The notes under the pieces were generated by a model. It saw only the letters and a list, made by a program, of their open reading frames with translations, ran no database searches and was not told the DNA's origin. This document shows positions 6,627-48,693 of a stretch of 60,887 bases of DNA, one piece after another. The position numbers were made by a program, and so were the translations under genes. Each line of letters starts with the position of its first letter. The stretch's first letter is position 1. Origin of the DNA: a virus; the IMG/VR virus record IMGVR_UViG_3300002835_015500, positions 1 to 60,887 of that record, one strand, 5' to 3'.

Positions 6627-7702
6627 TTACTTTTCTTTTTGCTATATTTCTTTTTGCAAACTAAATATTCTTTTAATGAAAGTTTGTATTTTGATGTTTC
6701 TTTGTTTTTCTTTAAATGATCTTTGCAGTCTTTAAAAGAAGCATTTGGTTTTTTTCCAAAGCATTCTTTCATGCATTTTTCAGCCATTGACTTCATATCA
6801 TCTGAATCGTCGCTTGAATCATCAGAATCTGAGTCCTTTTCTTCATCGGAGTCATCATCAGAATCTTCTTTTTTAGATTTTTTAGATTCAAATAATTCTT
6901 CATAAGAAGTAAAGTTATCAGATATTCTGCTGTTTGGAGCAAACCCAACTTCACCTGGACCGGGCTCATCTGATAATCCACTAAAGTGTTTGACGGTTGG
7001 ATTTCCCATTTGTCCAATTATGCTTCCCATCCACTCTTTTTCAGCAGAAACTTCAATAGAGTCTGTTGACTCATTCTTTTTCTTTTTCTTTTTCTTTTTA
7101 TCAGATTTTTTTCTTAATATTTTAAAATCTTTTCCAGTTATTTTACCATCGCCATCAACGTCTAGCTTTTTCTGCCCGCCTTTTAAAAATTTAGGCTTTT
7201 CTTTCATATCCCCTTCGTCCTCATCTTCATTGTCCTCATCTTCCATGTCTTCGTCTTCGTCTTCATCGTCTTCATCTTCCATGTCTTCATCTTCGTCTTC
7301 ATCGTCTTCATCGTCTTCATCTTCCATGTCTTCTTCGTCTTCATTATCCTCATCTTCCATGTCTTCGTCTTCATCTTCTTCGTCTTTTTTAGCCTTAACT
7401 TTTTCTAAATCTACATCATCTTCATCAGAAAACATTCCTTTGCATGATTTGCATGCTTTGCAACTCTTACTGCAGCCACATTCTTTTTTTGAACCTGGTT
7501 CATCTGCTTTGCTAGCTGGTGGGACTGTTTCACCGTCACCTGTAACGTCTACTTTAACTTTTTTCTTTCTTCTTGCTTCTTCAAGATCTATTCCTTCAAC
7601 ACCATTTGAAGAAACTCCTAAAGATTGAGGTTGAGATAAACCTAAAGAAAAAGAACTAAAAACCGACTCGTTTAATGATTTCCAATCTTTATAACTAAGC
7701 AT
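6623..7702 (-). CDS. Very acidic low-complexity protein with EF-hand-like loop
   Basis: 359 residues, starting MLSYKDWKSLNE (capsid-targeting-like motif) behind an AGAGG ribosome site. In order: a Cys-rich patch (residues about 73-88, CGCSKSCKACKSCKG), a long run of Glu/Asp with regularly spaced Met (about 95-170), a loop LDVDGDGKITGKDF that matches a dockerin/EF-hand calcium loop, a Lys run, and a second Ser/Asp-acidic stretch. T4 has acidic core proteins (gp67, gp22) that are degraded in the prohead; this may be an equivalent, or a DNA mimic or Ca-binding protein. Its antisense strand has a long open frame that I regard as an artefact of the GAN/GAA codons. Confidence 0.8.
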   Translation of the reverse strand: MLSYKDWKSLNESVFSSFSLGLSQPQSLGVSSNGVEGIDLEEARRKKKVKVDVTGDGETVPPASKADEPGSKKECGCSKSCKACKSCKGMFSDEDDVDLEKVKAKKDEEDEDEDMEDEDNEDEEDMEDEDDEDDEDEDEDMEDEDDEDEDEDMEDEDNEDEDEGDMKEKPKFLKGGQKKLDVDGDGKITGKDFKILRKKSDKKKKKKKKNESTDSIEVSAEKEWMGSIIGQMGNPTVKHFSGLSDEPGPGEVGFAPNSRISDNFTSYEELFESKKSKKEDSDDDSDEEKDSDSDDSSDDSDDMKSMAEKCMKECFGKKPNASFKDCKDHLKKNKETSKYKLSLKEYLVCKKKYSKKKSK

Positions 7703-7735
7703 ATTAAACCTCTTTTAAAAGTTAAAGTTTGATAT

Positions 7736-7743
7736 TATATATA
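7736..7743 (+). promoter_or_regulatory. Late-type box TATATATA
   Basis: TATATATA ends 6 nt before ATG 7750. T4 late promoters are TATAAATA at -13 to -6, which would place the start of transcription at about the ATG. No Shine-Dalgarno site is present. Confidence 0.5.
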
Positions 7744-7749
7744 TCATCA

Positions 7750-8349
7750 ATGATTAAAAAAATTTGTTTATTTTTAATAATATTTTTCTTATTTTATTTA
7801 ACAAATAATATAAAAAAAGAAATAGAAACATCTAAAAATCAAATTTTAATTAATTCTAAAGACAAAAAAGAACTATCAATAAATTGTGAAATAAGCTTAG
7901 GATTATTTAAAAAAAACCTAGATGGTCGTATGTTTTTAGAAAATAATAAATTTAGAATATTTCTTTATATTGTTTCAGAAAAAAAAATAGATGTAGGATG
8001 TAATGAAAAATACTTCTGGTATTGGTCCAAAAAAGAAGAAGAAAACACTCTTTTTTATTCTGATGTGTCTGATATGAATTTAGTTATGAAGGATTGTTAT
8101 AATCCAAGTTGGATGTTGAGTGTTTTTAAAAATATAGATAAAAAAGGAGAAGTTTATAGCCTACACAGAGGGAGCAAATTAATATCAACAGCTACAATTT
8201 TACCCAACAATACTATTAAATTTCAATTTATTGAAGAAAAATTAACAATAGTTTTTAAAATAAAAAATGCTTTCATCAAAGATTTTGATGAAAGCATTTT
8301 TAAAATTCCTAATCACTATAGAGTTTTAAATAAAATGACTCCAAAATAA
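7750..8349 (+). CDS. Membrane-anchored or exported protein, LolA/LolB-like fold possible
   Basis: 199 residues. An N-terminal hydrophobic segment (residues 4-20, ICLFLIIFFLFYL) looks like an uncleaved signal anchor, with no lipobox. The rest resembles outer-membrane lipoprotein-carrier-type proteins: a GRMFLENNKFRIFLY strand pair, then DVGCNEKYFWYWSK and a later PSWML. I know similar strings from bacterial proteins with a LolB-like pattern, but this is recall, not an alignment. The frame also has a TTG at 7729, inside the late box, so ATG 7750 is the more likely start. No SD; a late box lies 6 nt upstream. Confidence 0.65.
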   Translation: MIKKICLFLIIFFLFYLTNNIKKEIETSKNQILINSKDKKELSINCEISLGLFKKNLDGRMFLENNKFRIFLYIVSEKKIDVGCNEKYFWYWSKKEEENTLFYSDVSDMNLVMKDCYNPSWMLSVFKNIDKKGEVYSLHRGSKLISTATILPNNTIKFQFIEEKLTIVFKIKNAFIKDFDESIFKIPNHYRVLNKMTPK

Positions 8350-8355
8350 ACAAAA

Positions 8356-8562
8356 TTATTTACCCAAAGACTTTTTAATAGCCTCTTGTCTTTGTTTATT
8401 GACTGCCGCTCGGTTAACAGATAGACCAGAAATACTTGGAGGTTTTCTGGGTGTTACATTGGCTTGTTGTGTTCTTGGAGGCACATTAGCCCTAATTACA
8501 CCTGGGGTTTTTGCTACTGCTCGTGTTGGTCTACTGGCGTTTTTTCCACATCCGCATCCCAT
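8356..8562 (-). CDS. Small basic protein with MGCGCGK start
   Basis: 68 residues. It begins MGCGCGKN, a Cys/Gly cap seen on small phage proteins, followed by a Pro/Arg/Thr-rich disordered stretch and a basic C-terminus. SD AAGGAG lies 7 nt before the ATG. A TATATAAT-like box lies further upstream (around 8595-8605 on the minus strand). Function unknown. It is isolated from the next minus-strand gene by a terminator. Confidence 0.7.
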   Translation of the reverse strand: MGCGCGKNASRPTRAVAKTPGVIRANVPPRTQQANVTPRKPPSISGLSVNRAAVNKQRQEAIKKSLGK

Positions 8563-8612
8563 GTTTAACTCCTTTAATTAAAATAAAATTACCTATATTA
8601 TATATGTGTGTA

Positions 8613-8650
8613 AATAAAAAAACCCTCCTGAAAATCAGGAGGGTTTTAAA
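8613..8650 (-). terminator. Rho-independent terminator after 8672 gene
   Basis: AACCCTCCTG (8621-8630) pairs with CAGGAGGGTT (8636-8645). On the minus strand the hairpin is followed by a T run (the A run at 8615-8622), so it ends the minus-strand gene 8672-8965. Confidence 0.88.
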
Positions 8651-8671
8651 ACTAACTATTTAGTTTTAGAT

Positions 8672-8965
8672 TCAACTCTTGCAAAGTGTTAAAGACTTCT
8701 TTTTGGTCATTTTTGGTGGAATAGACTTGCTTGCACGCTTAACCATAGATGTTCCATCTTCTGTGATTTTAACGTTTGTGTATCCTAGCTTCTTAGCTAT
8801 ATTCTTGGCTGCCGTGATCAGTGCAGATCTTGTTGTAAATAACGTGCTACCATCAGCCTTTCTCTCCAACTTAGTTGGACGAAGACCGTCTACGCCTACA
8901 GTTGCCTCAAAATAATTAATATTGCTGCTCTTCTTATTTGTGACCTGAACATTAAGATTAGTCAT
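8672..8965 (-). CDS. Hypothetical basic protein
   Basis: 97 residues, basic, with alternating strand and helix character (ALITAAKNIAKKLGYTNVKI). SD AAAGGA before the ATG at 8965. Its own terminator makes it a one-gene transcript. The composition is less AT-driven than its neighbours. I recognise no family; it could be a small DNA- or RNA-binding protein, but nothing shows this directly. Confidence 0.75.
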   Translation of the reverse strand: MTNLNVQVTNKKSSNINYFEATVGVDGLRPTKLERKADGSTLFTTRSALITAAKNIAKKLGYTNVKITEDGTSMVKRASKSIPPKMTKKKSLTLCKS

Positions 8966-40537: not shown

Positions 40538-40723
40538 ATGGCTATAAAAAAAGAAAAAAATAAATTATTTGAATCTTTTATAAATAAAACTTCGAAAAAA
40601 CAGTATAGTGGGGTGTATGTAGGATTACCTCCAAAAAATTTAAAAGTTGGGGATCTTTATTTTAACAATAATCTTAACGTGTTATACATTTTTACTGGTA
40701 AAGAATGGAAAGTTGTTGCATGA
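40538..40723 (+). CDS. Small hypothetical protein upstream of dnaE
   Basis: 61 residues from ATG 40538. N-terminal half basic and helical, C-terminal half a strand-rich VGDLYFNNNLNVLYIFTGKEW (a small hairpin-like pattern often seen in tail or fibre attachment tips). Transcribed from a leaderless promoter, with the dnaE start overlapping its stop (ATGA). No family recognised. Confidence 0.65.
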   Translation: MAIKKEKNKLFESFINKTSKKQYSGVYVGLPPKNLKVGDLYFNNNLNVLYIFTGKEWKVVA

Positions 40724-42093
40724 AAGATAAGGTAGAAATTGTTGGATTTGAACATCTTCACCTCCATACAGACTATTCTTTGCTTGATGGTTTTCAAACC
40801 GTTGAGGAAGCAGGTAATCGCGCCGTTGAAATTAATCAAAAATTCTTAACAGTTTCAGATCACGGAATGTTAGGAGCTGTACCCAGACAAATTAAAATAT
40901 GCGATAAGATATGTGATAAACATAAAGATAAAAATAAATTATCCCCAATATTTGCTTCAGAATTATATATAAATTCATTACAACCAGAAAGTTCTGGTCT
41001 TGAGGATCTTCAAGATTTTACAAAAGAATTATCTCCAGATGAGATGGATGTTTTTAAAGCTAGTCCTCACTTGCTGGCTATAGCGTACAATTTAGAGGGC
41101 TATAAAAATTTAGTACGTTTAACTAGTTGGGGTTGGACTAAAGGCTTCTATAGAAAGCCTAGAGTCAATTACGAACAATTAAAAAAGCATAGAGAAGGTC
41201 TTATTTTTACAAGCTGTTGCTATAATAGCGAGATAGGTAGAGCTTTTGACAAGGGTGGAGAAGAAGCTGGATTCCAAATGCTTGAAAAGCATTTGGAAAT
41301 GTTTGGTAGAGAGCATTATTATTTAGAATTAATGCTACTAGACTTTAAAAAACAGTTTGCTTATGACGCTTTTATAATCAAGTGTCATGAAAGATATAAA
41401 TTACCTTTGATCGTAAGTTGTGATGTTCATTATTGCAAAAAAGAAGATAGTCATTATCAAAGATTAATGTTGATGATTCAAACAAATAGAACTTTAAAGG
41501 AGATAGAAGAAGCAAAACAAAAAGATGCAATGGTTGATTTTTTTGAGCTTCAAGATGCTAATCTTTGGATGAAGAGTGAAGAAGAGCTTAATGAAAAATG
41601 GTTAAGTGATTACAAAGATATTATTCCATATGAATTGTTTCAAGAAGCTAAAAAGAATACAGTTAAAATATGCGAAATGGCAAAAGGTGTGACCTTCGAT
41701 AGAAGTTTAAAGCTGCCTAATATTGAAAATTCTGATGACAAATTAAGAGATTTGGTCGTACAAGGTTTTAATAAAAGAAATTTACCAAAAACAAAAGTAT
41801 ATTCTTCAAGAATAAAAGAAGAGATATCATTAATCAAGAGAAAAGGATTTAGTAGTTATTTTCTTATTCAAAAAATGATGACAGATGAAGCCCGACGAGT
41901 TTGTCCTGAAATATTAGGATGGGGCGATGGAAGCGATGCAGTAGGACCGGGTCGAGGGAGTGCTGGAGGTTCTCTCGTATGCTACTGTCTAGGAATAACG
42001 GATGTTGATCCTATAAAAGAAGACTTACTATTCTCTAGATTTCTTTCAGAATCTAGAGGTGGGAGAAGTATGATTTTAGAATTTAAGGATTAA
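40720..42093 (+). CDS. dnaE: DNA polymerase III alpha (DnaE), N-terminal fragment
   Basis: 457 residues from ATG 40720 (ATGA overlap with the previous stop). PHP domain with HLHLHTDYSLLDG and TVSDHGML, and the VSCDVHY region; then the start of the palm with GPGRGSAGGSLVCYCLGITDVDP. It ends soon after RFLSESRGGRSM, before the catalytic Asp motif, which is on the next fragment (44638). There is no intein motif at the end. The gene is interrupted by a 2.5-kb block of four minus-strand genes. The fragments would need to assemble without a covalent link, or this half may not function. Confidence 0.9.
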   Translation: MKDKVEIVGFEHLHLHTDYSLLDGFQTVEEAGNRAVEINQKFLTVSDHGMLGAVPRQIKICDKICDKHKDKNKLSPIFASELYINSLQPESSGLEDLQDFTKELSPDEMDVFKASPHLLAIAYNLEGYKNLVRLTSWGWTKGFYRKPRVNYEQLKKHREGLIFTSCCYNSEIGRAFDKGGEEAGFQMLEKHLEMFGREHYYLELMLLDFKKQFAYDAFIIKCHERYKLPLIVSCDVHYCKKEDSHYQRLMLMIQTNRTLKEIEEAKQKDAMVDFFELQDANLWMKSEEELNEKWLSDYKDIIPYELFQEAKKNTVKICEMAKGVTFDRSLKLPNIENSDDKLRDLVVQGFNKRNLPKTKVYSSRIKEEISLIKRKGFSSYFLIQKMMTDEARRVCPEILGWGDGSDAVGPGRGSAGGSLVCYCLGITDVDPIKEDLLFSRFLSESRGGRSMILEFKD

Positions 42094-42107
42094 TTTAGTA
42101 AATTATT

Positions 42108-42287
42108 TCACTTTCCTTTGTAGTACTTCGACGGGATGTTGTCTTTTCTTCGTTCGTTTCGTTCTTTATGAGAGCTAAGTGGAAGACTGCCCGCGGCATT
42201 TCCCATTTTTATAGCTTTTGCTACCCTATCATTATTTTTTAGTTCTTCTTTTTCTTTTTCTTCTTTGAATTGTTTAAAACTTTTCAT
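42108..42287 (-). CDS. Small basic protein with capsid-targeting-like N-terminus
   Basis: 59 residues, start ATG 42287. It begins MKSFKQFKEEKEKEE, the shared head-targeting motif, and continues as a small basic protein (KERNERRKDNIPSKYYKGK) suited to DNA contact. It lies 15 bp beyond the interrupted dnaE fragment, on the opposite strand. AT-rich upstream with three TTAATTG direct repeats (42294-42314) and a TATAAT close to the ATG. No family recognised. Confidence 0.6.
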   Translation of the reverse strand: MKSFKQFKEEKEKEELKNNDRVAKAIKMGNAAGSLPLSSHKERNERRKDNIPSKYYKGK

Positions 42288-42321
42288 AAATTATAATTGT
42301 TAATTGTTAATTGTTTATTTT

Positions 42322-43251
42322 TTAAATTTCGTCTGAAAAATAATCCCTACGCATGCCAGATCTTCTCCCTAGGGGCGAATCATCTTCCATATCTTGGTTT
42401 TTATTATAACCATGATCCTCAAGATCATCGCTATCTAAATTTTCGCTATCATCTTCATCTTCCATTTCTTCGTCCCCAAACTCATCATCTTCTTCGTCAT
42501 GATGATGGTGACGATGACGATGGCGTCTATAACCTTCTTCTTCGTCTTCCATGCCTTCTTCGTCTTCCATGCCTTCTTCGTCTTCCATGCCTTCTTCGTC
42601 TTCCATGCCTTCTTCGTCTTCCATGCCTTCTTCATCTTCCATGCCTTCTTCATCTTCCATGCCTTCTTCATCTTCCATGCCTTCCATGCCTTCTTCATCT
42701 TCCATGCCTTCCATGCCTTCTTCGTCTTCAAACCCAACAGGCTCACTAATTGATTCGTGTATTCTTTTTGATCTTTTTATTTTACTGAGCTCTACAATAA
42801 AACCTTCAAGTAATCCGGATCTGTTAAACTCTCTTGATGCAACCTCTATTAATTTTGGATTGCTTTTTAATGTTTCTACAAAATTGCCAATAAGATCTTC
42901 AGCATTTTTTATTTTATTAATATTTACTTTTACACTTTTTTCTTCTTGAATTTTTTTTGCAAATTCAGAAACAGATAATTTTTTTGTTTTGTTTAACCAT
43001 TCTTTAATGTTTGTTTTATGCCATTCTGGAGCTTTTTTCTGTAGCTCTGGACCTGTGTCTGGTTCGTAGATGTTTTTTTCATCTCCAATATTTCCGAGTC
43101 CCTTGTCTTTAATTTTATCATATTTATGAACTTTTGGTTTATAAACAAGAGACTTATCGCCACTAATTCCTAATGCCTTTTTATCACTTTTTTTAGTCTT
43201 CTTATTTTTCTTTTGTTCGTTTAAGAATTCATTAAATTTTTTGAAAGGCAT
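42322..43251 (-). CDS. Acidic tandem-repeat protein with capsid-targeting-like N-terminus
   Basis: 309 residues, starting MPFKKFNEFLNEQKK behind GGAG. Residues 1-170 are a Lys-rich helical part. Residues about 175-240 are tandem copies of a 6-residue unit MEDEEG, followed by RRHRHRHHHH, a His/Arg cluster that may bind metal, and an acidic end (DEEDDEFGDEEMEDEDD). Acidic core or scaffold proteins of T4 (gp67, gp22) are functionally comparable, by inference. It sits inside the dnaE break and is transcribed against it. Confidence 0.75.
   Translation of the reverse strand: MPFKKFNEFLNEQKKNKKTKKSDKKALGISGDKSLVYKPKVHKYDKIKDKGLGNIGDEKNIYEPDTGPELQKKAPEWHKTNIKEWLNKTKKLSVSEFAKKIQEEKSVKVNINKIKNAEDLIGNFVETLKSNPKLIEVASREFNRSGLLEGFIVELSKIKRSKRIHESISEPVGFEDEEGMEGMEDEEGMEGMEDEEGMEDEEGMEDEEGMEDEEGMEDEEGMEDEEGMEDEEGMEDEEEGYRRHRHRHHHHDEEDDEFGDEEMEDEDDSENLDSDDLEDHGYNKNQDMEDDSPLGRRSGMRRDYFSDEI
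42541..42726. repeat. 18-bp tandem repeats coding for MEDEEG
   Basis: About nine in-frame copies of an 18-bp unit (TTCTTCGTCTTCCATGCC and close variants with TTCATC), plus two shortened units, on the minus-strand coding sequence. Repeat copy number is likely to vary between isolates by slippage. Confidence 0.9.
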
Positions 43252-43261
43252 TTTTTCTCCA

Positions 43262-43435
43262 TTATTCTTTTGTTTGCATCATGATCCATAAAATGATATA
43301 AATTATAGGACCCATCCCAGCAAGTAAAAATGCAAATAGAAAAGCAAGCCTAAAAACCGCAGTCGGTATCCCAGTTGAATCCGACAAACCAGCACAGACT
43401 CCGCCAATCATGGCGTTTTTCTTGTCTACTTTCAT
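43262..43435 (-). CDS. PspC-domain membrane protein (mini)
   Basis: 57 residues from ATG 43435, behind AAGGAG. It begins KKNAMIGGVCAGLSDSTGIP, the hallmark of the PspC domain, and continues as one membrane helix (FRLAFLFAFLLAGMGPIIYIILWIMM). Host PspC sits in the inner membrane and takes part in envelope-stress signalling. A phage copy may protect or tune the membrane during infection. Located in the dnaE break, next to a homing endonuclease. Confidence 0.85.
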   Translation of the reverse strand: MKVDKKNAMIGGVCAGLSDSTGIPTAVFRLAFLFAFLLAGMGPIIYIILWIMMQTKE

Positions 43436-43483
43436 TTTACTCCTTTGATTATATTTATACATCTGTACTAAAATTTTATTTAA

Positions 43484-44578
43484 TTAAAAACACATTTCTT
43501 TATATCTGTTATATTTTCTTTCTAAGTATACAGTAGCATTCTTGTATAAGTAATCACCTATTTTTTTGGCTTGTAATCTGCCTCCTATCGAAAAACTATA
43601 GTTGTTTTTATTATCCTTGTGCCTTTTTTCTAGTTTTGTATTTTTATGAAGTATTTCTTGACATTTTAGTAGAAATTCTTTTGTACCACATAGATTAAAA
43701 ACATAATATTTACCATTACTTTTTTTGAAAGATCCATCACCATCAAAATATCCTCTTATAAAATGATGTTGTAAGTTTTTTGGAACTATAGATTCATTTG
43801 GAAATTTTAATATTAATGTCTTTTTTTCGAAAACTCCTTTGTCAATTAAATCATCAAACAATTGATCTGAAGTAATAAGTAGTCTGCAATATTCTATTTC
43901 TACTCCTCCAAAAGACTTCGACTTATAAATATTTATTGGATATGTAGCATTAATTTGTTTTTTAAAAACCTCTAGATGATCCATATCTTTTATGTTTAAT
44001 GATATTCCAATTTTTTTATTTTTATTTATTCGGCTAATGTAACCGTCAGCATAAATAAAACCAAGCCAATACGCTTTGTGTTCATTATCTATATTTTTAA
44101 AAAAATCATAATTTACATGATATTTTCTTGAATTTATTTTATTACTACGAATAAGCCCTCTTTTTTTAAGATTTTTTGTTAACTTGCCAAGCCCTATACC
44201 AGTTATATTTTTTACCTTTATGGTGGATAATCCTGATAAGTATAAATCTATTGATTTTTCTAATATATGATCATATTTAATAATTTTCTTTTTTGATATT
44301 TTTAATCTTTTTATTTCTTTTCTCAATGTGTGTAGAGAAACCTTTGTTATTTTATTAACTTCATTTAAACTTTTTCCATTTTCGTAAAGACTCAATGCTT
44401 CTTTTAAACTCTCTGATGTATAGCTCTTGTGAGCGGCTTCTTCGGCACTTCTTGTTAAACCAAGTTTTTTAAGTTGATATTGAAGTCCTTGAAAAGATAC
44501 TTCCGCTTCAGCTGCGGACTTTTCTATTGATTTTCCTTCTTTGTAAATAAGAATTGCTTTTTTCATTGATTTTTTCAT
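43484..44578 (-). CDS. LAGLIDADG homing endonuclease in the dnaE break
   Basis: 364 residues. The N-terminal 140 contain three repeated helix-turn-helix (NUMOD-like) units, with SLSEV/TLRKEIKRL-type ends, which usually recognise DNA. The C-terminal part has two LAGLIDADG motifs: WLGFIYADGY at 171-180 and FIRGYFDGDGSF at 273-284. The two acidic residues needed for cutting are present in both. It is encoded antisense to dnaE, so it is not an intron or intein ORF. It would promote spread of the whole interrupting block by cutting an uninterrupted dnaE. Confidence 0.88.
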   Translation of the reverse strand: MKKSMKKAILIYKEGKSIEKSAAEAEVSFQGLQYQLKKLGLTRSAEEAAHKSYTSESLKEALSLYENGKSLNEVNKITKVSLHTLRKEIKRLKISKKKIIKYDHILEKSIDLYLSGLSTIKVKNITGIGLGKLTKNLKKRGLIRSNKINSRKYHVNYDFFKNIDNEHKAYWLGFIYADGYISRINKNKKIGISLNIKDMDHLEVFKKQINATYPINIYKSKSFGGVEIEYCRLLITSDQLFDDLIDKGVFEKKTLILKFPNESIVPKNLQHHFIRGYFDGDGSFKKSNGKYYVFNLCGTKEFLLKCQEILHKNTKLEKRHKDNKNNYSFSIGGRLQAKKIGDYLYKNATVYLERKYNRYKEMCF

Positions 44579-44624
44579 ATATGTCCTTGATGTGAGTAGA
44601 TAATCTATATATAATATAGAGTAA

Positions 44625-44632
44625 TAAAAATA
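44625..44632 (+). promoter_or_regulatory. Possible late-type box TAAAAATA
   Basis: TAAAAATA is 5 nt before ATG 44638, as in the late boxes. Because dnaE would be expected to be an early or middle gene, this may be a chance AT match. Confidence 0.3.
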
Positions 44633-44637
44633 TTTTT

Positions 44638-45951
44638 ATGAAATCAAACATATTTAAAATTTGTGAAGAAAAATTAAAAGAAAAAGGATTGTATGAAGAT
44701 AAAAGATATCAAAAAAGATTAGAATGGGAAAAACAAGAGATAATTTCTCAAAATAAGGAAAATTACTTTCTAGATATGGTGACCAGAAATGTAAATTATC
44801 CAGATAATGAAAATAATCTTTTGGTGTGTTGGCTACTAGAAATAGTACCAAATTTTGATATAGAAAAAGATCCAAATTATGTACAAGGTGATTCTCCGGA
44901 TATCGATGTGGATTTTATTCCTGCTGTTCGTGATTTTTTAAAGAATGAATGGGCTCCTAAAACATTTGGAGAGCAATATGTCTGTAATATAGGAAACTAT
45001 ACTACTTTTGGTATTAAATCCTCTCTTATCGATATGGTTAGAGTTCACGGAGAAGAAAGAGGAGAAATACTCGCTTTAACAACAAATCTTCAAACAAAAG
45101 ATGATGAAGGAAAAGTTCTCACATGGGATTCAGCTATGAAAACTGATCCTATGCTTAAGAAATACTGCGAAGAACACCCAGATATAGCAAAGGCTGCTCA
45201 AAAACTAATTAATAGAAACAGAGGGACAGGTATACATGCTGGAGGTTTGATTGTAAGCTCTATTCCTTTAACCGATCTTGTTCCTCTTATAAAAAGAAAA
45301 GATAGCCCTCAGGCAAGTGCTTGGGTAGAAGGTCTTCATGGACAAGATCTACAGCCAGTAGGACTTGTTAAATTTGATTTGCTTGTGATCAGTAATCTTC
45401 TTCAGATTGCAAAGTGTTGTAAGCTTATAAAAGATAGAAAAGGTATTGATAAAATATGTGCATTTCCTGGTCAAGGCAATTGGAGCAACATAGATGAGTA
45501 TAGGAATGATTTAAAATCCCTAGAAATGGCTAATGAAGGAGACCTTAAATGTATCTTTCAGTTTGATAGCCCAGGTATTAGATCATTAGCTAAAGCTGGT
45601 GGTGTTACAAGATTTGAAGATCTTGTTGCCTACTCATCATTATATCGTCCAGGTCCTTTGAATTGTCTTCAAAAAGATGTAAAAGTTAATACAAATCTTG
45701 GATATAAAAAAATAAAAGATTTGAAGCCTGGGTTAGATAAAATTGCCTATTTAAGTAAAAAAAAGAAAATTAAATATACTGAAAAATTTATTTTAATAAA
45801 AACTGGTTATAAAAAATTATTAAAAATTAAAACTAAATCTGGAAAAGTAATTTTGTGTTCAAATGAACATAAAATCCTTACCGATAAAGATGAATTTATT
45901 GAAGCCGAAAAATTATCTGTTGGGCAAAAAATTGCTAAAAAATTAAAATAA
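44638..45951 (+). CDS. dnaE: DnaE middle fragment with N-terminal split intein
   Basis: 437 residues. Residues 1-342 are polymerase: PDIDVDF at 87-93 carries catalytic Asp residues, followed by NRGTGIHAGG, KFDLLVISNL (third catalytic Asp region) and YSSLYRPGPLN. Residue 343 is Cys (45664), the first residue of the intein; 343-437 read CLQKDVKVNTN then VILCSNEHKILT (block B-like TxxH is NEHK). The protein ends without the extein. The 86 residues before PDIDVDF include a YQKRLEWE...YFL...LLVCWLL string that looks like a degenerate repeat of the upstream fragment. Confidence 0.88.
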   Translation: MKSNIFKICEEKLKEKGLYEDKRYQKRLEWEKQEIISQNKENYFLDMVTRNVNYPDNENNLLVCWLLEIVPNFDIEKDPNYVQGDSPDIDVDFIPAVRDFLKNEWAPKTFGEQYVCNIGNYTTFGIKSSLIDMVRVHGEERGEILALTTNLQTKDDEGKVLTWDSAMKTDPMLKKYCEEHPDIAKAAQKLINRNRGTGIHAGGLIVSSIPLTDLVPLIKRKDSPQASAWVEGLHGQDLQPVGLVKFDLLVISNLLQIAKCCKLIKDRKGIDKICAFPGQGNWSNIDEYRNDLKSLEMANEGDLKCIFQFDSPGIRSLAKAGGVTRFEDLVAYSSLYRPGPLNCLQKDVKVNTNLGYKKIKDLKPGLDKIAYLSKKKKIKYTEKFILIKTGYKKLLKIKTKSGKVILCSNEHKILTDKDEFIEAEKLSVGQKIAKKLK

Positions 45952-45989
45952 AATCTCCTACATATTATTGAATAGTCCTGGAGGCTACA

Positions 45990-47003
45990 ATGATATGTAA
46001 ATTATGCAATAGAGAAATTTCAGACAAATTTTACAGACATTTAAACTCGTCTCATAAAATTAAAAAAACGAAGTATTTGCAAATGTTTCCCGAGCAAACA
46101 GAAGAATATAAAAATCAAATACCCGATGTTTGGAATAAAGGTGAAACCAAAGAATCTAATGAGACTGTATTTTCAATTGCTAAAAAAGTCAAAGATTATA
46201 GCAATCAAGCACATGTTAAAAAAAATAGATCTGAGCGTATGAAAAAAGCATATGAAAAAGGAGATATCCTCAAACCAGAGACTAGAAAAAAAGTTGTTAA
46301 AATGGCGTCAGACGCTTGGGTTAGTAAGGTTAAATCTGTTTCTCCCGAAGAAAGAAAAAAATTATTATTTGCTTTCACATCTGCCGGGAATGAAAAGCTT
46401 AAACAATTGAGAGAAAAGCGGACACCCGAAGACTACCAGAGATTATACCCTTTGGCTAAAGGCAAAGCCAAATATAGTAATTGTGCATTTTGTGATAAAC
46501 AAATTATTATATGGGTTGGAGGAAAGCCAAGACCTAAAATTAAATTTTGCTCTAAAGACTGTAATAATAATTATCGAAAAGTTCATCCTGACTATGTATT
46601 TAGTAGCACAGGCAAGTCATTCTATTCAAAAAAAATGAATTGTGATTTTTTTCTTAGATCGAGACTTGAATTATGGCTCTCCGAACTACTAGATGATTCC
46701 CCATATGTTAAATCTTGGTTTGCAACACCTTGTTGTATTGCTTATAATTATTGCGGCAAAAATAAAAAATATTTTCCGGATTTTTTAATTAATGAAAAAT
46801 TTTTAGTAGAGTTAAAATCAGGATATGTTTATCAAATTGATGCCGAAAAATCTGAAGCAAAATTAAAGGCTGGTGAAAGTTATGCGATAGAAAATAATTT
46901 TCTTTTTCATTACTGGCAGTTCAATGATTGTAACATGAGTAGAAAAAAGTTTCGCAACGACAAAAGGGTTATTAATTTTTTTGAAAGTATAAAAAATGAT
47001 TGA
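45990..47003 (+). CDS. Vsr-like homing endonuclease between split intein halves
   Basis: 337 residues. A C2H2-like finger at the N-terminus (C3, C6, H17, H22), a long basic linker, a second zinc site (CAFCDKQ and KFCSKDC), then a Vsr/EDxHD-type nuclease fold: RLELWLSELL, FPDFLINEKFLVELKSGY (PD...ExK), and a YWQFND end. It is a free-standing gene placed exactly between the two intein halves; its stop overlaps the start of the C-terminal half by 8 bp. This matches the fractured-gene arrangement described from metagenomic phage-like sequences. An SD-like CTGGAGG lies before the ATG. Confidence 0.8.
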   Translation: MICKLCNREISDKFYRHLNSSHKIKKTKYLQMFPEQTEEYKNQIPDVWNKGETKESNETVFSIAKKVKDYSNQAHVKKNRSERMKKAYEKGDILKPETRKKVVKMASDAWVSKVKSVSPEERKKLLFAFTSAGNEKLKQLREKRTPEDYQRLYPLAKGKAKYSNCAFCDKQIIIWVGGKPRPKIKFCSKDCNNNYRKVHPDYVFSSTGKSFYSKKMNCDFFLRSRLELWLSELLDDSPYVKSWFATPCCIAYNYCGKNKKYFPDFLINEKFLVELKSGYVYQIDAEKSEAKLKAGESYAIENNFLFHYWQFNDCNMSRKKFRNDKRVINFFESIKND

Positions 47004-48693
47004 TTATGATGAAATAATTTCTATAGAAAAAGTTGACGAAGATGAATGTTATGATATTTCTTTAATCATTGAAGATGATCTTTATATCGATGAGCCTAAT
47101 TTTATTGCTCAAGATATTGTTGTTCATAACTGTAAAATGCATGAAAGATTCATAGAAAGAAAAAGAGGCAGAGAAGAATATAAATTACATCCTATTTTAA
47201 ACGAAATATTAAAAGATACTTATGGGGTAATTGTATACCAAGAACAAGTAATGAAAATATTGAACATGGTTGGAAATATTCCAATGAGAGATGTTGAAGC
47301 TGTAAGAAAGGCTATTAGTAAGAAAAAAGTAGAACAGTTTATTAAATACAAAGAAACATTTATTAATAATGGAAAAAAGAACTTGGATTCTTCTGAAGAA
47401 GAATTAGAAAATTTATGGAAACTTATTGAAAGTTTTGCAGAATATGGCTTCAATAAAAGTCATGCAGTATGTTATACTCATATTAGTTCAAGACTTTTAT
47501 ATTTAAAGTCTCATTTTCCTCATGAGTTTTATACTGCAATTTTAACATGTGAAAATGATGCCGATAAAATTAAAGAATATAGAAAAGAAATAACTAAGCA
47601 TAAAATAGATTTAAAGCCTGTTGATATTAATTTGTCTAAAGAAAACTTCAGCCTTATAGGAGATGATATTTATTTTGGTTTTTCTAATATAAAAGGAATA
47701 GGAGAGCCTATAGCAAAAGAAATAGTAAAGAGACAGCCATATAAAAACTTTGAAGATTTTGTTGAAAGATTCGGAACAGATTCTAGTGTATTAAAGCCAT
47801 TACTTTCTCTTAGGTGCTTCTCCGATTCGGATCCTTACACTCTTTTTATGTTCTCTGAAAAATATAAAGATTATATAAAGAAAAATCAAGATAGAAAAAA
47901 AAGGTATGCAAATACAGCAAAAAAAAATAAAGAGATTCTTTATTCAATGATCAAGGAGGCAGAGAATACTGATTTTATTAAAAATAAAGTAGTTAGTGGG
48001 GAGATAGACTATATTGATTTAGATTCTTTGAAAATTGGCAGTAAATCATGTGATGATTGGAAAAAGAGATATTTAAAACTTATTATTAATAACAAAGATG
48101 CTTGGAAAAACATATGTAAAATGATTAACAAGATACAGACTGCCAAAAAAAGATATGAAGATAAAGAAGATTTGGAGAAACCTAGACTAGAAGGTTTTGT
48201 TATTGATGATTCTAAAATTGATAAAAACTTGAAAAAAGAATTTGATGATTTAGTAGCCTGTGAAAAGAAGTATTATGGATTTGCTTGGCACAGTAATGTA
48301 AAGGACAGTCCGGATTATAGGGGAGGATTAACCTTCGACACACTAGAGCCTGATTCTGGAGATACTCTTCCTGTGGAAATAGAGGTAATATCTTGTAGTA
48401 AAAAGAAAGGTAAAAAGGCAGAATACTATCAGGTAAAAGCAGAAGATTGTAATTGTGATGAAGGTCTTATAAATGTATGGAAAGATGATTATGCTAATTT
48501 TCAAAATGAATTAGTTCCTGGAAGTTTGCTTAGAGTAAGATTAAGTGCCCCAAGCAAAGGCTTCAAGACATACACAATAGCTAGCACTGGACCAAGAAAT
48601 TTTTTCAAAAAAAGTACTGTTAATAAAGAAGACGACTACAGAATAGTAGTTCTTAGAAAAAAGGAAAAAGATGAGCAAAGAGTTGATAATTGA
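46996..48693 (+). CDS. dnaE: DnaE C-terminal fragment with C-terminal split intein
   Basis: 565 residues. Residues 1-45 are the C-intein: MIDYDEIISIEKVDEDE, CYDISLII, and the final NFIAQDIVVHN (block F/G, His44-Asn45), followed by +1 Cys46. From 46 on it is DnaE: KMHERFIERKRGREE, TYGVIVYQEQVMKI, FAEYGFNKSHAVCY, then the tau/OB-like C-terminal part. Splicing would join RPGPLN to CKMHERF. The cyanobacterial DnaE intein site (AEY/CFNKSH) is uninterrupted here, so this is a different insertion point. The protein overlaps the next gene by 23 bp. Confidence 0.9.
   Translation: MIDYDEIISIEKVDEDECYDISLIIEDDLYIDEPNFIAQDIVVHNCKMHERFIERKRGREEYKLHPILNEILKDTYGVIVYQEQVMKILNMVGNIPMRDVEAVRKAISKKKVEQFIKYKETFINNGKKNLDSSEEELENLWKLIESFAEYGFNKSHAVCYTHISSRLLYLKSHFPHEFYTAILTCENDADKIKEYRKEITKHKIDLKPVDINLSKENFSLIGDDIYFGFSNIKGIGEPIAKEIVKRQPYKNFEDFVERFGTDSSVLKPLLSLRCFSDSDPYTLFMFSEKYKDYIKKNQDRKKRYANTAKKNKEILYSMIKEAENTDFIKNKVVSGEIDYIDLDSLKIGSKSCDDWKKRYLKLIINNKDAWKNICKMINKIQTAKKRYEDKEDLEKPRLEGFVIDDSKIDKNLKKEFDDLVACEKKYYGFAWHSNVKDSPDYRGGLTFDTLEPDSGDTLPVEIEVISCSKKKGKKAEYYQVKAEDCNCDEGLINVWKDDYANFQNELVPGSLLRVRLSAPSKGFKTYTIASTGPRNFFKKSTVNKEDDYRIVVLRKKEKDEQRVDN

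Follow-up and report, generated by a model that had tools for sequence, protein, structure and literature searches.

The window analysed here is the whole 60,887-base virus record IMGVR_UViG_3300002835_015500, whose genes (tail sheath, DnaB-like helicase, UvsX-like recombinase, ribonucleotide reductase and PhoH) are those of a tailed phage of the myovirus type. Its dnaE gene, encoding the alpha subunit of DNA polymerase III (Pol III alpha), lies in three pieces: DnaE-N (40705-42093), DnaE-mid (44638-45951) and DnaE-C (46996-48693). At the break between DnaE-mid and DnaE-C the gene is fractured, and the class 1 intein found there, which is naturally split, is most likely trans-splicing and mobile. 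We consider it highly probable that the phage carries a mobile fractured-gene cassette in its Pol III alpha gene, with two halves that would trans-splice, a nuclease that would cut and home, and a spliced product that would pair non-covalently with DnaE-N. This view is founded on the anatomy of the locus, on its homology to inteins, on the recurrence of the cassette in three lineages and on their sister alleles with an empty site. The features are as follows.

40705-42093, plus strand: DnaE-N, PHP domain and first palm half (PF02811, 7.8e-31; PF07733 positions 2-98; phrog_405)
44638-45663, plus strand: N-extein of DnaE-mid, second palm half and start of the fingers, ending in RPGPLN (PF07733 positions 100-259; PF17657 positions 4-107)
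45664-45951, plus strand: N-intein of 95 residues with Cys1 and block B CSNEH, and the stop codon (TIGR01445, 25.9 bits)
45980-45984, plus strand: GGAGG, ribosome-binding-like site of the nuclease gene (from the sequence)
45990-47003, plus strand: free-standing nuclease of 337 residues with an N-terminal Cys/His motif, a WNKGxTK stretch and a C-terminal PD-(D/E)xK domain (PF24308, 1.8e-7; conservation; TnsA fold match)
46996-47130, plus strand: C-intein of 45 residues, NFIAQDIVVHN (PF14890 positions 119-155, 17.7 bits)
47131-48693, plus strand: C-extein of DnaE-C with Cys+1, the remaining fingers and the HhH domain (PF17657 positions 82-165; PF14579, 1.4e-14)

Both intein pieces lie where a preliminary description of the window had placed them. 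DnaE-mid ends in a 95-residue N-intein that starts at Cys343 (nucleotide 45664), and the separate gene from 46996 opens with a 45-residue C-intein ending in His-Asn before Cys+1 at 47131. The intein similarity proposed there proved real in profile searches, as the N-piece exceeds the cut-off of TIGR01445 (NCBIfam, intein N-terminal region; 25.9 against 24.5 bits) and the joined piece matches PF14890 with an E value of 2.2e-8. A profile of the three joined inteins from the occupied lineages described below finds 25 distinct solved-structure sequences at E <= 0.01 (best 9.3e-9), mostly named inteins or intein-bearing proteins, gp41-1 and NrdJ-1 being two of them. A control profile was built from the two relatives only: the joined window intein scores 181 bits against it, the best of 1000 shuffles of that intein 10.3 bits, and the best of the 440 open reading frames (ORFs) of the window, besides the two intein carriers, 4.6 bits.

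Cys1 and the block B motif S66xxH69 are invariant in the three alleles, H139-N140 is likewise invariant, and Cys+1 is present in all three. Since Cys1, the block B His, the terminal His-Asn and Cys+1 are all present, the putative splicing reaction would take the class 1 route. The predicted structure of DnaE-mid with its N-intein (mean predicted local distance difference test score (pLDDT) 62, predicted template modelling score 0.29) is confident only for residues 1 to about 80. Scanning contigs with the N-intein alone returned only the already known loci, from two lineages. For the C-intein, the sole cellular match in genome_contigs is an archaeal MCM gene (45% over 44 residues), no further search for cellular inteins at this DnaE site having been made. 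On the viral side there are four further matches (L099-L102), outside dnaE as far as inspected; one of them, L099, is ribonucleotide reductase-like (PF02867, 16.8 bits, under the cut-off).

Searches with DnaE-mid and with an alignment of DnaE-C gave 56 contig rows including the window, 52 of which cover the insertion site, the other four being left out. The state of the site was assigned by a gap test, except that L070 was placed among the empty alleles after its ORF had been found to read straight through YRPGPLGMGMSEKF. This contig (L070:5992-8853) has an in-frame insert of about 70 residues in the DnaE fingers region, in which no intein motifs are visible. The uninterrupted dnaE that the preliminary description had called for at RPGPLN/C was found, as 47 of the 52 rows are empty. 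The five occupied rows are the window and L003 (same virus), L004 and L024 (same sequence here), and L072. The N-intein, a nuclease of the same family and the C-intein follow in the same order in all three occupied lineages. The arrangement proposed for the window, with a free-standing nuclease gene between split-intein halves, is supported and is also that of L004/L024 and L072.

In the maximum-likelihood tree of DnaE-mid (51 rows, 42 of them different, identical contigs having been kept), each occupied lineage is sister to an empty allele, namely L005 (100/98), L007 (100/99) and L037 (100/99). The occupied and empty labels require three changes on this tree; at least three are already forced by its well-supported branches, and among the bootstrap trees the 5-95% range runs from three to three. 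Label shuffles give a count as low as that observed in 5 of 500 cases, although near-copies among the rows favour low counts. The tree does not tell gain of the cassette from loss. Between lineages, identity is 47-54% for the nuclease, 41-51% for the N-intein and 66-68% for the C-intein, with 64-67% for the DnaE-mid extein and 56-60% for the first 110 residues of the C-extein. With this distribution over the sampled sequences, the cassette looks mobile.

The joined exteins form a continuous DnaE sequence, as had been claimed: the window reads RPGPLN/CKMHERF and its closest relative, L005, RPGPLN-MKMHERY. The other occupied junctions are RPGCIK/CGMDKRY and RPGPMQ/CGMDKRY, and empty examples besides that of L005 are RPGPLG-MKMQERY and RPGCLA-SGMTKRY. 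The +1 residue of the 47 empty rows (located at RPG by script in 40 and by eye in the remaining seven) is Met in 28, Ser in 5, Gln in 4, Leu in 3, Val and Glu in 2 each, and Ala, Asn and Cys in 1 each. Thus every occupied lineage has Cys+1 and 46 of the 47 empty rows have another residue; Cys+1 in the occupied alleles is what the predicted splicing chemistry asks for.

The preliminary description also placed a complete gene for an EDxHD/Vsr-like endonuclease in the gap. The gene is indeed complete (337 residues, 45990-47003); the EDxHD/Vsr label was not confirmed, the enzyme having PD-(D/E)xK residues and no invariant His in the catalytic domain. E227, P263-D264 and E274-x-K276 are invariant in three of three alleles. 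The only invariant His residues of the three sequences are H17, H22 and H199, all outside residues 207-337, so that the conserved His of the EDxHD motif is not seen there. DUF7487 of Pfam is above its cut-off in all three nucleases, and the TnsA N-terminal family in one. The AlphaFold model has a mean pLDDT of 67.8, with residues 211-337 in blocks of 64 to 92, and its best fold match is TnsA, a moderate one (Z 8.6 over 106 residues). The EDxHD enzyme I-Bth0305I (3r3p) follows under TnsA with Z 7.0 over 96 residues, and it may share a wider nuclease fold with the window enzyme. In a review (PMC3943268), PD-(D/E)xK and EDxHD stand as two distinct homing families whose active sites resemble each other in structure. 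Because E227, PD and ExK are invariant, no His of the catalytic domain is, TnsA is the best fold match and EDxHD is a separate family, the gap enzyme is, by residues and modelled fold, a PD-(D/E)xK nuclease with a TnsA-like fold and predicted cleavage activity.

No relatives of this nuclease appeared in the phage collection at E 0.01, and when PDB sequences were searched with its profile, the four matches obtained were all at chance level. Scanning viral_contigs with the window nuclease alone returned an identical copy and one 29% match (L027); among the matches listed for the alignment of three nucleases were two of the three known cassettes and five weak stretches (L088-L092). In the three whose ORFs were inspected (L089, L090 and L091), these are short, free-standing genes that carry WNKGLTK stretches and, at the C-terminus, a part resembling a nuclease.

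A search of the gap for terminator-like sites found none, so that a single transcript is possible. A GGAGG site of its own precedes the nuclease gene, whose stop and the ATG of the C-intein gene overlap by 8 bases. Given this overlap, translation of the DnaE-C half may be coupled to that of the nuclease.

The first break, between DnaE-N and DnaE-mid, is of another kind. The two pieces are in different ORFs in 29 of 29 contigs that hold both, at distances of 968 to 7463 bases (2548 in the window, 2566 in L003), and no intein match was found at the ends of this break. Three minus-strand ORFs separate them in the window, including the first of the two features below; the second is the start of DnaE-mid.

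43484-44578, minus strand: LAGLIDADG homing endonuclease gene in the first break, outside the split-intein cassette (PF14528, 7.3e-11; 79% identical in L005)
44638-44889, plus strand: N-terminal 84 residues of DnaE-mid, a diverged second copy of a palm segment (overlap on the unsplit LR756511 DnaE)

The LAGLIDADG gene, just upstream of DnaE-mid, has relatives at the same place in L005 and, with 48% identity, in L048. A relative adjoins the first break in only 3 of the 30 contigs searched (L003, L005 and L048), and it is therefore not what keeps the split. A further minus-strand gene (42322-43251), which contains an acidic repeat of the EEGMED type in tandem, has 18 more bases in L003 than in the window. 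On the unsplit 1183-residue DnaE of the uncultured phage LR756511, DnaE-N covers 8-437 and DnaE-mid 344-697; this overlap of about 94 residues implies that DnaE-mid opens with an additional, diverged copy of a palm segment. The copy lacks GxGRGSA, which is kept in DnaE-N, and the acidic motif PDIDVDF is in DnaE-mid, both motifs presumably having their usual roles in the window DnaE. We infer from these sequences that the polymerase needs both chains, and the mature enzyme would probably consist of two chains, one of them made by trans-splicing. A literature search for a phage dnaE split in two genes found nothing. The dnaE of Desulfonema, in the portion of PMC6390638 that deals with it, has two adjacent coding sequences with an intein inside one, and its authors state that this is not the cyanobacterial split-intein case.

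Taken together, the two halves of the cassette would be translated separately and would associate through the intein halves. Trans-splicing by the class 1 route would then yield one DnaE chain across RPGPLN-CKMHERF, with release of the intein, and this DnaE-mid/C chain would pair non-covalently with DnaE-N, which brings the PHP domain and the first palm half. In mixed infections the PD-(D/E)xK nuclease would cut uninterrupted alleles at this site, and repair of the cut allele from an occupied copy would copy in the whole cassette.

Several observations weigh against this reading. On its own the C-piece scores poorly, with 17.7 bits for PF14890 and 12.3 bits for TIGR01443, whose cut-off is 15.6, and the joined intein, at 34.5 bits, falls 1.3 bits below the PF14890 cut-off of 35.8. 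The nuclease and the N-intein are more diverged between lineages than the DnaE-mid exteins, the C-intein is not, and divergence above that of the exteins gives no sign of recent exchange among these three lineages. To these should be added the moderate TnsA match of the nuclease model and an empty allele with Cys+1 (L008:8001-10739, RPGPLN-CRMHERY), by which Cys+1 is not unique to occupied alleles; it might be a scar of clean intein loss, or chance. Cys+1 by itself proves nothing. The intein halves might be splicing-dead relics and the DnaE pieces might assemble non-covalently, as the clade DnaE presumably already does at the first break, where DnaE-N and DnaE-mid lie apart in 29 of 29 contigs. 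We regard this as improbable, because all the key residues persist in three alleles so diverged that their N-inteins are only 41-51% identical, and Cys+1 is rare where there is no intein (1 of 47 empty rows). Moreover, the second break lies inside the fingers, with only a short overlap of profile positions, whereas the first break has a duplicated segment.

Alternatively, an ordinary free-standing homing gene might have broken dnaE, with the gap removed or bypassed at the level of RNA or translation by an intron, a frameshift or readthrough. There is precedent for such interruption, as group I introns and free-standing endonuclease genes are described in the relevant section of PMC3653736 as interrupting phage nucleotide-metabolism genes, ribonucleotide reductase above all. 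For the window, however, this seems very unlikely. The preliminary description had named a single frame with a shift as what would overturn its view, and this is not the case: the intein frame has 16 stops in 349 codons across the gap (23 in 351 in L004), which rules out one reading frame broken by a single shift. An Rfam scan of 41700-47400 matched no family at E <= 5, on which ground an intron in the gap was rejected, and the flanks of the gap are homologous to intein halves. Least credible of all is an error of assembly or sequencing. The window is a single AT-rich metagenome contig, but L003 has the same arrangement with a gap between DnaE-N and DnaE-mid that is 18 bases longer, and two diverged lineages show the arrangement as well, on contigs whose sample numbers are different. 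We thus retain the mobile fractured-gene cassette as the best explanation.

Relatives of the window carry inserts at a second DnaE site, EYGFNK/S, four residues past the cyanobacterial one, in 7 of the 52 rows. These are short inteins, inteins overlapped by a nuclease gene, and one apparent split intein (L060). Complete nuclease ORFs lie out of frame within the middle of the intein in L021:9694-10680, L022:9661-10524 and L023:9640-10617. Across these nucleases there are no stops in the intein frame and 13-24 in the third frame; conservation is 51-59% for the nuclease and 33-41% for the intein frame, and L021 scores 21.9 bits, under the cut-off, against the Pfam intein domain. The same kind of overlap occurs in other DnaE genes (L106:5968-6813 and L107:5938-6984) with a stop-free DnaE frame; L107 has intein-domain matches above the cut-off, at the overlap or elsewhere, and L106 none at E <= 0.01. 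Of eleven free-standing relatives, the ten tested all have stops in both other frames. An out-of-frame HNH gene in a phage methylase insert, which is not an intein, is reported in a 2025 paper (PMC11855218).

In L060:5935-10175, what seems to be a split intein of another kind interrupts DnaE at EYGFNR/S, and a free-standing LAGLIDADG gene (7610-8710) separates its halves; the N-half scores 30.5 bits against the intein domain, under the cut-off, and the C-half has no Pfam intein match at E <= 1. A nuclease with its own frame and start could let an intein break without losing mobility. At the first site, the split-intein gap of L072 (8321-9629) holds, after the nuclease, a gene like that of the restriction endonuclease NaeI (E 6.5e-21) and a further gene with a weak match to D12-type adenine methylases (E 0.01, under the cut-off), as though an essential gene harboured, in its split intein, a mobile slot for cargo. 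Possibly, and we advance this only tentatively, the polymerase genes of this clade show how split inteins arise and gather cargo.

If these assignments are right, a phage replicative polymerase can be added to the genes that are encoded in pieces and whose products are probably ligated by protein trans-splicing, in this case at a non-cyanobacterial site. With the clade-wide split between DnaE-N and DnaE-mid added, the making of a working polymerase would involve three genes and two distinct ways of bringing their products together. The three diverged natural versions of the intein can be tested as ligation tools, and, with empty, occupied, overlapped and apparently split alleles in a single gene family, the question of how split inteins originate can be put to the test.

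A literature search found no publication on a split intein in a phage Pol III alpha, a result that argues only weakly for there being none. The fractured-gene kind was reportedly defined by Dassa et al. 2009 (NAR), who are said to have described phage DNA-metabolism genes interrupted by a split intein, the two halves of which flank the free-standing gene of a homing endonuclease. The window cassette has the same layout of a split intein, a free-standing nuclease gene and a conserved gene. It differs in its host gene, Pol III alpha at RPGPLN/C, and in its predicted PD-(D/E)xK nuclease, where the first described was reportedly of the EDxHD/Vsr kind. That work is cited in PMC12350094, PMC3653736 and PMC7090010. 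AceL NrdHF, as presented in the corresponding part of PMC7891396, is likewise a fractured phage-like gene with a nuclease between halves of similar length (98 and 48 residues, against 95 and 45 in the window). Within the same account, however, it is a class 3 intein with a GIY-YIG nuclease in a ribonucleotide reductase, whereas the window has a putative class 1 intein and a PD-(D/E)xK nuclease in Pol III alpha. I-Bth0305I and TnsA may have a nuclease fold in common with the model of the window enzyme (Z 7.0 and 8.6), which differs by E...PD...ExK and the lack of an invariant His in the domain.

The cyanobacterial split DnaE inteins (Npu and Ssp DnaE) also interrupt dnaE, at EY/CFN. Its counterpart in the window, AEYGFNKSH, is uninterrupted, in agreement with the preliminary description, and the window insertion is at another site. 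These inteins are mentioned in PMC7765530. The split intein gp41-1 (PDB 6qaz) matches the three-intein profile over nearly its full length (positions 5-138 of that profile; E 3.3e-6) and has SEEH at block B, but its identity is low and its host gene is another one. The fractured-gene kind is already known from other phage genes, and the cassette described here is a further case of it in Pol III alpha, found in three lineages at one site.

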